From positions 434,001 to 498,000 of the forward strand of contig NZ_CP054491.1 of the NCBI RefSeq assembly GCF_013343005.1: 64,000 nucleotides of DNA, read 5' to 3'. Positions 21,143 to 37,616 of this stretch are shown piece after piece (position 1 is the first letter of the stretch; every line of letters starts with the position of its first letter). The translations under genes were made by a program, and so were the position numbers. The stretch is from Candidatus Reidiella endopervernicosa (GTDB lineage: Bacteria; Pseudomonadota; Gammaproteobacteria; GCF-013343005). Below the pieces are notes generated by a model. The model saw only the letters and a list, made by a program, of their open reading frames with translations. It was not told where the DNA came from and searched no databases.

Positions 21143-22290
21143 GACTCACACCACCCAGAATCGATATTGTCACTACCTGCATGGGACGCCTGTCCCATCT
21201 ACAGCAGTCACTGCCACTGGCACTCGCCCAGCCAAACGTGAACTGTATCGTGGTCGACTACTCCTGCCCAAACAATAGTGGCGACTGGGTGAGGGCACAC
21301 CATCCCGAGGTAACCGTTGTCGATGTACCAGACCAGATGCATTTCAGTGCCGCAACTGCACGAAATCTAGGTGCAGGGCACAGCGATACAGAGTGGCTTC
21401 TCTTTCTTGATGCCGACATTCTTCTGCCTGCAGATTTTCTACAAATGACAAACATCGAGCTGATGCCTGATACGGTCTATCGTGCCGATACATCAGCAGG
21501 TGGTTATGACAAGTACGGCTCCTTCCTCGTGCAGCGCGCCCATTTCGAGAAGGTCGGCGGATTCGACGAAACTTTTCCGGGGAGTCGCTATTTTTGCGAA
21601 AGTTTGTTTTGGGCATCCAAGCCCAAGCAAACAGCAAAAACTTCACGCGACCGTTTATGCCTGCGGCGCCCCGACCGTCCTGCGTACGTTGCGTAATCAC
21701 CTCTTCGCGGCTCTACACAACTCCCTCAGTGACTCTACGCCGACATAAAGCCGCTGCTGCATCTTCTCCGTCGTTCGCTCGCGCTCTCAACTACGAATAG
21801 GCAGACGGCGTCGACTATCGGGGACTAACCGCCCTCACTTCGCTCTCCATGGCGGTCAGCGAAGGCTGGGGATGTGAAGACCGAGATCTCTATCAGCGAC
21901 TGGAAGAGATCGGTGTCTCCCACTCTCTTTCCTAATCATTGGTTAAATTCAATCACTCACGGTGATGATTACCGCAGCGCCAACTACCCGCTAAGTAAAT
22001 ATGTAAGCATGTTCATCAATCGAAACTATCTTCGAATAAAACAGGAAATGACAGACATTCAGGGTGGGTCGCTGAGTACAAGCGTGAGAACGCTGATCTA
22101 TCAATCGGTCATGCACACCGTAATTCGTGCCCAAGAGACCCACTTTATTGGCAAGACTCTGGTTGAGTTCACAATAAACAAGGAGCAGTCACAAGTGGAC
22201 GCTCTGAAATTCCACCTGGATACGCTACCACGACCACGTCGATTCCTATCACGCAAGATATGGAAATTCAGAAAACAGATGAGTGATTAA
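21130..22290 (+). pseudogene. Glycosyltransferase family 2 gene interrupted by a repeat
   Basis: The first part encodes a GT-A fold: IDIVTTCMGRLSHLQQSLP, CIVVDYSCP, AATARNLGAG and the DxD-type LFLDADILLP, reaching VGGFDETF. Repeat copy 3 then intervenes. The gene resumes with EGWGCEDRDLYQRLEEIGV, exactly the continuation expected of galactosyltransferase-type GT2 enzymes (FDETF-x-GWG-x-ED). A single-base frameshift follows at about 21935, after which FPNHWLNSITHGDDYR continues to a C-terminal domain of about 110 residues. The start of the reading frame lies inside repeat copy 2. Two lesions plus a lost native start make function unlikely. Confidence 0.85.
21577..21861 (+). repeat. Dispersed hairpin-ended element, copy 3 (inside the glycosyltransferase gene)
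   Basis: This 285-base copy is among the least degraded. The left hairpin has the arms TTTTTGC/GCAAAAA, GTTTG/CAAAC and TTGGGC/GCCCAA around an ATCCAA loop. The right hairpin pairs CTAACCGCC with GGCGGTCAG (one mismatch). The insertion falls between codons for F and E of the FDETF-EGWG motif. No direct repeat of the flanks is visible at the junctions. Confidence 0.95.
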
Positions 22291-33722: not shown

Positions 33723-34343
33723 ATGGCCATCAATTTCCAACCCGCTCACTACACTATTAGCGCTGTCGAACTCAGCGGCTGTCCCGAGGACAGCGGTGCC
33801 GAGATCGCATTTGCCGGACGCTCTAACGCTGGTAAATCGAGTGCACTCAATGCGATAACCAACCAGAAGAGCCTTGCACGGGTGAGCAAAACACCCGGTA
33901 GAACCCAGGCGATCAACTATTTTGATATCGACTCGGAACACCGTCTGGTCGACCTGCCCGGCTACGGCTATGCCAAGGTGCCGGAGAAGATGAAGAAGAA
34001 GTGGCAGAAGCTGATGGGCGACTATCTGGGACAGCGTAAATGCCTACGCGGCGTAGTGTTAATGATGGATATCCGCCACCCACTGACCGATTTTGACCAG
34101 CAGATGATCGATTTTTGTGCCGAGACCAACCTGCCGCTGCACATCCTGCTGACCAAAACGGACAAGCTCAAAAGGGGTGCGGCGCAGAATACACTGCTCA
34201 AGGTGACGCGCGATCTGGAGACGGTCGATGCCGATATCTCGATCCAGCTCTTCTCGGCAACGAAAAAGACCGGTGTCGACCAGGCCCGTGCACATCTCTC
34301 TGAATGGCTGCTTTCGGACTCGCTGATTGAGGAGGACGAATAA
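33723..34343 (+). CDS. engB: Ribosome biogenesis GTPase EngB (YihA/YsxC)
   Basis: EngB is a small TrmE-Era type GTPase needed for 50S ribosome assembly. In the 206 residues, G1 is GRSNAGKSSALNAI near residue 33, G2 contains the TPGRTQ stretch, G3 is DLPGYGYAKVP near residue 80, G4 is TKTDKL near residue 146 and G5 is QLFSATKKTG. It faces polA as in E. coli, where the Spot 42 RNA lies between them. Here that gap holds a dispersed repeat and a hairpin-rich segment that may encode an equivalent RNA. Confidence 0.96.
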   Translation: MAINFQPAHYTISAVELSGCPEDSGAEIAFAGRSNAGKSSALNAITNQKSLARVSKTPGRTQAINYFDIDSEHRLVDLPGYGYAKVPEKMKKKWQKLMGDYLGQRKCLRGVVLMMDIRHPLTDFDQQMIDFCAETNLPLHILLTKTDKLKRGAAQNTLLKVTRDLETVDADISIQLFSATKKTGVDQARAHLSEWLLSDSLIEEDE

Positions 34344-34377
34344 TCTGGCTCGATTGGAAGAGCCACAGTAGTTGAGG

Positions 34378-34659
34378 CGGGAGTCGCTATTTTTGCGAAA
34401 GTTTGTTCGGGCATCCAAGCCTCTAAGCAAACGCAAAACTTCACGCGACGTTTATGCCGCGGCGCCCCGACAGTTCCTGCGTTCGTTGCGTAATCACACT
34501 CTTCGCGGCCTCTACACAGCTCCCTCAGTGACTCTACGCCGACATAAAGCCGCTGCTGCATCTTCTCCGTCGTTCGCTCGCGCTCTCAAGCTACGAATAG
34601 GCGCGGCGTCGACTATCGGGGACTAACCGCCCTCACTTCGCTCTCCATGGCGGTCAGCG
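34378..34659 (+). repeat. Dispersed hairpin-ended element, copy 5 (engB-polA gap)
   Basis: This is the most divergent copy, with several indels in the left half (for example AAGCCTCTAAGC where others have AAGCCCAAGC). Both ends are recognisable: CGGGAGTCGCTATTTTTGCG and CCATGGCGGTCAGCG. It starts 35 bases after engB and ends 24 bases before the terminator of the candidate RNA on the other strand. It is the only intergenic copy here not placed just before a gene start. Confidence 0.9.
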
Positions 34660-34682
34660 CAGGCACAGGACAAATTTCAGAC

Positions 34683-34724
34683 AAAAAAAACCCGGTTCAA
34701 GGGGGGGGGGGATATGAACCGGGT
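34683..34724 (-). terminator. Intrinsic terminator with a C11 loop on the polA strand
   Basis: On the minus strand a 10-bp stem (ACCCGGTTCA with TGAACCGGGT) encloses a loop of about 15 bases made mainly of 11 consecutive C, followed by eight T. It would end the polA transcript or a small RNA. The exact C count may be uncertain, being a long homopolymer. Confidence 0.85.
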
Positions 34725-34824
34725 ATCAATATCCCGACCGCTCAGGGCCGGGTACAGGGATGCCCCCCATCGGGGGATTCAATATGGTGCCAGCCCGTTG
34801 GCACCGTTCTCGCTCACAACTTGA
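34683..34824 (-). ncRNA. Candidate small RNA downstream of polA (Spot 42/ErsA locus)
   Basis: The 240 bases between repeat copy 5 and polA hold no reading frame, but on the minus strand have three hairpins: GGTGCCA/TGGCACC, a CCCCC/GGGGG stem, and a terminator with a C-rich loop and T-tract. E. coli carries the Spot 42 RNA and Pseudomonas the ErsA RNA in this same polA-engB position. The size (about 140 nt if transcription begins near 34824) and the C-rich loop resemble ErsA more than Spot 42, but I did not align sequences. It could also be only the 3' untranslated part of polA mRNA. Confidence 0.5.
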
Positions 34825-34830
34825 GAATCA

Positions 34831-34858
34831 AGTCTAGTTGCTAATTGGCAGCCAACAA
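34831..34858 (-). promoter_or_regulatory. Possible promoter of the polA-downstream RNA
   Basis: On the minus strand TTGTTG and TAGACT are separated by 16 bases; TAGACT matches the -10 consensus at 4/6, and the -35 match is weak. It lies just after the polA stop. The evidence is position plus a modest match. Confidence 0.3.
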
Positions 34859-34898: not shown

Positions 34899-37616
34899 CT
34901 AATGCGCCTCTTCCCAGTTACTACCGATACCAATATCGACCACTAGCGGAACGGCGAGTTCCGCTGCCCCCATCATTTCGCTACGCACACCCTCGCTGAC
35001 ACGCTCAACAGCACCCTCCTCCACCTCGAAGACCAGCTCATCGTGGACCTGCATGACGATGCGCGCCCCACCCTGCTCGGCGAGCCACGCCTGCACGTCG
35101 ATCATCGCCCGCTTGATGATGTCGGCCGCACTGCCCTGCATCGGGGCGTTGATGGCGGTACGCTCGGCGTACTGACGGCGCTGGCCGTTACGCGCATTGA
35201 TGTCAGGGAGGTAGAGGCGGCGACCGAAGATCGTCTCGACATAGCCCTGTTCGTGCGCCTGCTCCCGTGTCTCCTCCATGTAGTTGTGCACACCGGGATA
35301 ACGTTCGAAGTAGCGGTCGATATAACCCTGTGCCGAGCCACGATCGATACCGAGCTGCTTGGCCAGGCCAAAGGCAGACATGCCGTAGATCAGACCGAAG
35401 TTGATCGCCTTGGCGCTGCGACGTGCATCGCTGGTGACATCCTCAGGCGCCACGCCGAAGACCTCAGCGGCGGTGGCGCGGTGCACATCTTCACCACTGG
35501 CAAAGGCCTTCAACAGCCCCTCATCCTGTGAGAGGTGCGCCATGATGCGCAGCTCGATCTGCGAGTAGTCAGCTGCGACGATAATCTGCCCCTCAGGCGC
35601 GATAAACGCCTTACGGATGCGTCGCCCCTCCTCGGTGCGTACCGGGATGTTCTGCAGATTGGGATCGGAGGATGAGAGTCGCCCGGTCGCTGCCACCGCC
35701 TGATGGTAGGAGGTGTGAACCCGTCCGCTGCGCTCGCTGATCTGCTTAGGTAGCTTATCGGTGTAGGTCGATTTGAGCTTGGAGAGGCTGCGGTACTCGA
35801 GAATCAGCTTCGGCAGCGCATAATCGTAGGCAAGCTCCTGCAACACCTCCTCTGCCGTTGAGGGTGCCCCCTTGGGGGTCTTTTTCAGTACCGGCAGGCC
35901 GAGCTGTCCGAAGAGGATCTCCTGGACCTGCTTTGGTGAGGAGAGGTTGAACTCTCCACCCGCCTCCGCATGGGCCTGCTCAACGATCTCAGCCATGCGA
36001 ATCGCCAGCTCGCCGCTCTGCTGTTGCAACATCTTACGATCGACCAGCACGCCGGTACGCTCGATATCGGAGAGCAGCGGCACCAGCGGCATCTCTACCG
36101 TCTCGAACAGCTGCTTCAACCCCTCCTCCCTCTCTAGCCGTGGCCAGAGGGTCTGGTGCAGTTGCAGGGTGATATCGGCATCCTCGGCGGCGTAGGGGGC
36201 CGCCTCCTCCAGTGCGATCTGGTTGAAGGTGAGCTGCTTGGCACCCTTGCCGGCAATGTCTTCGAAGTGAATCGTCTTTCTATTCAGATACTTGAGCGCC
36301 AGGGAGTCCATATCGTGGCGGGTGGCGGTGGAGTCGAGCACATAGGACTCGAGCATGGTGTCGAAGACGATACCGTTGAGGGTGATACCGTGGTTGGCGA
36401 GCACGCTACGATCATATTTAAGGTTCTGCCCCACCTTGGCACGCTGCGGGTCCTCCAGCAGTGGACGCAGCTGTTCGAGCACGTCTTTGCGATCGAGCTG
36501 ATCGGGGGCGCCAGGATAGTCGTGGCTGAGCGGTACGTAGGCCGCCCTGCCCGCCTCAACCGCAAATGAGAGCCCGACCACCTCTGCCTCCATATAGTCG
36601 AGGCTGGTGGTCTCAGTATCGAAGGCGAAGACCTCGGCCGTTTCCAGTTCAGCGATCCAGCGATCGAGATGGGCCTGATCGAGTACCGTCTCGTACTCCG
36701 CCTCAACCTGTGGTGGAGCGGCCTCCTCCGCCACCGCGGCAGCGGCAGACTCACCCTCCCCCAGCAGCTCGGCGAGCCAGCTCTTGAACTCAAGTCGACC
36801 GTAGAGGGTTTTCAGTGCCTCATTATCGGGCTCCTGCGGCTGCAGATCCTGCGGCCCCTGCTCCAGCTCAACGTCACACTTGAGGGTGACCAGATCGCGC
36901 GCGAGTGGCAGCTGCTCGAGACTGTTACGCAGGTTCTCACCGATCTTGCCCTTGATCTCATCGGCCTTACTGATGATCTCATCGAGTGATCCATAGGCAG
37001 TGAGCCACTTCACCGCCGTTTTTGGCCCCACCTTCGGCACACCGGGAATGTTGTCGGCGCTATCGCCGACCAGCGTGAGGTAGTCGATGATCTGACCCGG
37101 CTGCACGCCGAACTTCTCCACCACCCCTTCCACATCAAGCACCGAGTTGTTCATGGTGTTGATCAGCATTACCCGCTCATTGACCAGCTGCGCGAGATCC
37201 TTGTCACCGGTTGAGATCACCACCGGCATATCGAGCGCATCGGCCTGCCTGGCCAGGGTGCCGATCACATCATCCGCCTCGACCCCCTCGATCACCAGCA
37301 TCGGCAGTCCCATCGCCTCGATGGTGCGGTGCAGCGGCTCAATCTGGCCGCGCAGCTCATCGGGCATCGGTGGGCGGTGTGCCTTGTACTCGGCGTACAT
37401 CTCGTTACGGAAGGTCTTGCCCTTGGCATCGAAGATCACCGCGACACGGTCGGTCGGGTAGGCCTTGAGCAGACTGCGCAACATGTTGAGCACCCCGTAG
37501 ACGGCACCGGTCGGCTCGCCGTGGGAGTTGGTCAGTGGTGGCATGGCGTGGAAGGCGCGGAATAGATAGGAGGAGCCATCCACCAGTACGAGGGGGTTTT
37601 GATCATTTTTTTGCAT
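34899..37616 (-). CDS. polA: DNA polymerase I
   Basis: This 905-residue protein has all three domains. The 5'-3' exonuclease lies at residues 1-290 ([47 protein letters not shown]). The 3'-5' proofreading domain follows near residue 330, with an intact first motif ([11 protein letters not shown]). The polymerase domain has motif A ([18 protein letters not shown]), motif B ([19 protein letters not shown]) and motif C ([11 protein letters not shown]). It serves Okazaki fragment processing and repair. An Ala/Glu-rich linker near residue 290 is a little longer than in E. coli PolA (928 residues overall there). Confidence 0.97.

Follow-up and report, generated by a model that had tools for sequence, protein, structure and literature searches.

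A sequence-predicted small RNA gene in the polA-engB interval, a probable ErsA/sX13-type superfamily member divergent in promoter and loops

The polA-engB gap and its predicted RNA

The window (the whole 64-kb stretch of DNA analysed here) carries polA, encoding DNA polymerase I, at 34899–37616 on the minus strand and engB/yihA, encoding a GTPase, at 33723–34343 on the plus strand. The two genes converge, and the gap between them holds a predicted small RNA (sRNA) on the polA strand, with polA as its same-strand upstream neighbor and engB facing it from downstream. The body of the predicted sRNA (34683–34805, minus strand, with an uncertain 5′ end) comprises three hairpins and an intrinsic terminator, in agreement with the original prediction of three hairpins and a terminator with an 11-C loop on this strand, which the fold confirmed. 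Reading from the 5′ end, all on the minus strand, these are a hairpin found by folding, GGUGCC-AACGGGCU-GGCACC (34786–34805); a hairpin with a CCCCC/GGGGG stem and a GAUG loop (34763–34776); a CCCGGCC-CUGAGC-GGUCGGG hairpin (34733–34752), similar to the ErsA hairpin CCCCGCCCUAGCGGUCC; and the terminator hairpin (34690–34724), followed by a terminal U run read from the sequence (34683–34690). The second and third of these are hairpins 1 and 2 of the family model described below. The 15-nt terminator loop reads UAU-C11-U, and its C11 homopolymer (34701–34711), the proposed mRNA-pairing site, compares with an expectation of 0.17 runs of 10 or more C per window. One more small hairpin is found farther upstream, around 34834–34818, and the minus strand from 34858 to 34683 folds at −65.4 kcal/mol (z −2.4), with 2 of 200 shuffles folding equally well.

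A mobile repeat had also been proposed 24 bases from the 3′ end of the RNA, and it proved to be real: a dispersed repeat of about 282 bp (34378–34659) lies outside the RNA, ends 24 nt from its 3′ end and has at least 41 other copies in the genome at 90–94% identity. Another copy within the window lies near 21580–21866. The surroundings of the repeat (34344–34700) contained no inverted repeat with a length of at least 14 nt.

Comparison with known RNA families

At curated Rfam cut-offs, no RNA family matched anywhere in the 64-kb window. At relaxed thresholds, the ErsA model (RF01719) matched the gap over its full length (model positions 1–116; window 34675–34793) with 33.9 bits and an E value of 8e-5, and this was its best match in the whole 3.45-Mb genome, the next having an E value of 3.7. 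The Rfam gathering scores are 50 bits for RF01719, 50 for RF02232 (sX13) and 49.5 for RF02837 (anti-hemB); at 33.9 against 50, the window RNA is therefore not filed as ErsA proper. The anti-hemB model matched the gap with 24 bits (E 0.0026), again under its gathering score, and the sX13 model had no match in the window at its gathering score and none in the genome at E 0.001. The Spot 42 model (RF00021) was unmatched in the window at its gathering score and in the gap up to E 10. The Infernal-type search proposed with the original prediction gave a match to the ErsA model, below its cut-off, and nothing for Spot 42. Matches of RF00122 (GadY) and cHP in the gap (E 3–8) were set aside as chance.

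Among the named relatives, ErsA/Pseudomon-1 (RF01719, Pseudomonas) resembles the window RNA in lying in the polA-engB interval on the polA strand and in having a GCCCU(g)AGCGGUC hairpin and a C-rich terminator loop. By contrast, the ErsA-bearing locus (L111) has an AlgU-type promoter, GAACTT-N-GTCATA, which is absent from the window copy, and the window RNA has extra GC hairpins and C11 in place of CCCCCUCCCC. sX13 (RF02232, Xanthomonadaceae) likewise lies downstream of polA and has three stable hairpins with C-rich loops, whereas in the window RNA such a loop is present in a single model hairpin. Anti-hemB (RF02837, Burkholderia RNA 7) shares the terminator and the preceding hairpin. Spot 42 (spf, RF00021; enterics and vibrios) shares the chromosomal interval and orientation, but no sequence or structure match to the window RNA was found, and it has no C-rich loops.

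A family model recovers the window RNA

For comparison across the class, we used 369 Gammaproteobacteria genomes, all from outside the order and family of the window organism. A DNA similarity search of the gap against other genomes of the class returned chance matches only, and RF01719 gave 49 weak matches in the 369 genomes, 1 of them above the cut-off. Of the 30 best RF01719 matches, about two thirds adjoin polA and/or engB and share the strand of polA, and these gaps follow a common plan, in which a GGAACTT-N-GTCTNA-like promoter is followed by two hairpins (CCCGCU-CCUCCCU-AGCGGG, then CCCGG-UUUCCCC-CCGGG) and then by a terminator whose loop is of the CUCCCCC type. We trained a covariance model, R1, on ten other gammaproteobacterial polA-engB RNAs, among them neither the window nor any Pseudomonas sequence. 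Searched against the whole 3.45-Mb window genome, R1 gave its top match at 34683–34777 on the minus strand (37.9 bits, E 4.4e-6; runner-up 21.8 bits), where the broader model R2, described below, scores 41.6 bits. The match covers model positions 1–103 of 103, with hairpin 1, hairpin 2 and the terminator in order. R1 also detects an ErsA-bearing Pseudomonas-type locus (34.4 bits) without such sequence in its training set.

Covariation and breadth of the family

We aligned 39 members, with the window excluded (A3), and built R2 from this alignment. The fraction of paired cells in A3 is 93.2%, falling to 65.8% on shuffling; both-side changes occur in 23 of 24 pairs, and sliding the partners by one column lowers pairing to ~50%. 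In a 36-member alignment that includes the window and the sX13, ErsA and anti-hemB loci, 24 of 24 pairs have double changes and 93.6% of cells are paired (67% shuffled), all these counts being biased towards the model since the alignments are model-fitted. A covariation artefact is made less likely by the size of the pairing difference and by the slid controls.

At E ≤0.01, R2 has matches class-wide in 182 of the 369 genomes and 139 of the 272 genera, about two dozen of the 182 genomes having contributed training sequences. We inspected 110 of the best R2 matches, including loci from the class-wide search, and found that 92, oriented as expected, adjoin polA and/or engB and that 4 more adjoin them inverted, on the engB strand (L160, L216, L239 and L241; 96 of 110 in total). 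All but two of the 110 (108) contain CUCCC or CCUCC. A strict sigma-E/AlgU-type motif lies upstream of 59 (against a mean of 0.7 and a maximum of 3 in shuffles, 1 on the opposite strand and 0 far upstream), almost invariably with a 17-nt gap and mostly 50–58 nt ahead of hairpin 1. Scored with a position weight matrix (PWM), 86 of the 110 have a sigma-E-type promoter above the 99% shuffle level, partly by construction, as the matrix comes from 56 members. Such a conserved sigma-E/AlgU-type promoter fits the family, because ErsA is established to be under AlgU (sigma-22) control (PMC8395346). That a regulatory RNA has been kept in the polA-engB interval, as the original prediction held, is strongly supported at the sequence level by the sub-threshold ErsA match, the genome-best R1 match and the covarying structure that many genera have at this locus.

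Several loci depart from the usual arrangement. Tandem copies, from two to five or more, occur in or near the polA-engB gap at L112, L124, L053, L060, L039 and L186. Four members lie away from polA and engB (L191, L228, L220 and L194), most of them retaining a sigma-E-like promoter; their neighbors are an M48 peptidase gene (two), a RimO/MiaB-like radical SAM-TRAM gene (one) and a nearby ResB gene (one). In Alteromonas and relatives (L091, L100, L104 and L107), the polA-engB gap has weak family-model matches of 19–27 bits, which are possibly intermediate or degenerate family members.

ErsA, sX13 and anti-hemB as proposed branches of one superfamily

ErsA, sX13 and anti-hemB have been described separately and are in no Rfam clan. 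R2, whose training included no Xanthomonas-type sX13 sequence, matches three loci that pass the sX13 cut-off with 38–44 bits, at the same coordinates, directly after polA. The anti-hemB model is above its cut-off in 20 of the 369 genomes and matches 168 genomes at E 0.001, mostly at R2 coordinates. Because R2 recovers the sX13 loci and anti-hemB shares the R2 coordinates, we take the unannotated members to form a single superfamily with ErsA, sX13 and anti-hemB, and by sequence and structure models the window RNA looks like part of it. Our literature search, which reached few subscription papers, found no paper uniting sX13 with ErsA. The Rfam cut-offs of the three families combined flag ~24 of the 369 genomes, whereas the joint model R2 reaches 182; most family members are therefore unannotated by Rfam.

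Divergence of the window copy

Between polA and hairpin 1 of the window copy, we found no sigma-E-type promoter (score −1.1 with the PWM from 56 sites, shuffle P 0.125). A promoter of this type ~54 nt upstream of hairpin 1 is common (86 of 110) and not strictly defining, so its absence from the window is not disqualifying. The window genome encodes an RpoE-type sigma factor and Hfq. A sigma-70 promoter scan at 9 of 12 consensus bases returned nothing in the window gap; a weak candidate recognized by eye, TTGTTG-N16-TAGACT (34831–34858, minus strand), has 7 of 12. Other members have no sigma-E-like site, as in the window (L157, L168, L184, L247 and L250), and the TGG-TAGACT-like extended −10 of L250 suggests repeated promoter switching.

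The loops of the window RNA differ as well. CUCCC/CCUCC, a motif outside the modeled structure that is present in nearly all inspected relatives, is missing from the window copy. Its hairpin 1 loop (GAUG, where relatives have CUCCCU-type loops) and hairpin 2 loop (CUGAGC) are both non-C-rich, and C-richness is confined to the terminator loop. There, the longest C run reaches 11, against 4–8 across the 110 relatives, making C11 extreme within the family. We call the window copy divergent because it has the C11 loop instead of CUCCC/CCUCC. The window's 5′ hairpin sits where the family has an extra 5′ hairpin (GAGCGC..GCGCUC), relatives having a hairpin immediately ahead of hairpin 1 in the matching place.

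Discussion

The position, structure and family match of the window RNA were demonstrated above, as was covariation within its family, whose plan, as judged from sequence, is two or three hairpins and a terminator with C-rich loops. We consider it likely that the region encodes a trans-acting sRNA of ~95–125 nt, a divergent member of the widespread polA-engB C-rich-loop family (the ErsA/sX13/anti-hemB superfamily). With somewhat less assurance, we also favor a common history, in which ErsA, sX13 and anti-hemB would be branches of one ancestral polA-engB C-rich-loop sRNA, found in roughly half of the genera of Gammaproteobacteria, driven in its ancestral state by a sigma-E-type factor, sometimes amplified in tandem, and lost or displaced in lineages that carry Spot 42; the window copy would be a branch that left sigma-E control and had its pairing sites cut to one poly-C loop.

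The gap might instead hold merely the polA 3′ UTR and its transcription terminator, with no separate sRNA or at most a minor 3′-UTR processing product, an explanation that we regard as unlikely. It would suit an RNA that follows polA on the same strand and has, after the polA stop codon, no persuasive promoter ahead of hairpin 1, but relatives have a conserved sigma-E promoter of their own at a fixed distance (by the strict motif and by PWM alike), covarying conservation extends beyond the terminator to all hairpins, some members lie wholly away from polA or on the engB strand, and ErsA and sX13 are independent RNAs. We think it rather improbable that the window copy is decaying, with selection relaxed after loss of the sigma-E promoter and CUCCC loops and with C11 arising by slippage. 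While the missing promoter and motif, a C run exceeding those of all 110 relatives and the mobile repeat inserted nearby are what decay could produce, the family stems are all wholly or almost wholly preserved, the terminator is perfect, and R1 scores this place best in the genome by a wide margin.

Two further readings seem to us scarcely credible. Chance hairpins in a GC-rich intergenic gap would be compatible with a fold z-score of just −2.4, but two independent models (RF01719 and R1) are both genome-best exactly here, and this reading is refuted as far as sequence can refute it. Orthology with Spot 42, which in E. coli occupies the same interval and strand as the window RNA, fares no better: beyond the lack of any RF00021 match, the family model gives the Spot 42 loci of Serratia at best 15.1 bits (E 0.49) and does not recognize them, and C-rich loops are absent from the terminators that Serratia has here. 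Of the original designation as a "Spot 42/ErsA-position RNA", the ErsA part thus stands as a relationship below the Rfam cut-off, whereas the Spot 42 part does not.

In 2013, the sX13 authors raised the question of whether other bacteria also have sRNAs at the polA locus (PMC3771888). From the present data, the answer would be yes for about half of Gammaproteobacteria, with a shared structure and an envelope-stress promoter that most members have in common. Three separately named sRNAs would thereby be tied to one origin, making their regulons comparable, and we consider a family this large and unified at the polA-engB locus a more interesting result than the single window RNA. The window copy would offer a natural test of losing the stress promoter and most anti-Shine-Dalgarno loops.

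For the window sRNA itself, transcription would probably start from a weak sigma-70-type promoter, or the RNA would be processed out of the polA 3′ UTR, because there is no recognizable sigma-E promoter; the product is predicted to end at the terminator. Experiments on sX13, an sRNA with three C-loops downstream of polA, showed that it represses mRNAs carrying G-rich motifs close to their start codons and is Hfq-independent (PMC3771888), and the pairing of ErsA with mRNAs takes place largely with Hfq (PMC8575079). By analogy with these two RNAs, it is plausible that the C11 loop pairs with G-rich ribosome-binding sites, and such pairing with the Shine-Dalgarno regions of mRNAs would, following the sX13 precedent, mostly repress translation of the targets. 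With CUCCC lost from two loops, the terminator loop would be the main pairing site. A scan of the genome for G6-N-ATG gave 69 sites against 45 for a reversed-pattern control, a modest excess in which 5 of the 69 come from the sRNA locus itself, and we inspected the first 30 loci. G6 runs lie 3–8 nt ahead of the start codons of rpoH (GGGGGGCGCATG) and napH (GGGGGGAGTGACTGATG), which are possible candidate targets, to be taken as a lead only.
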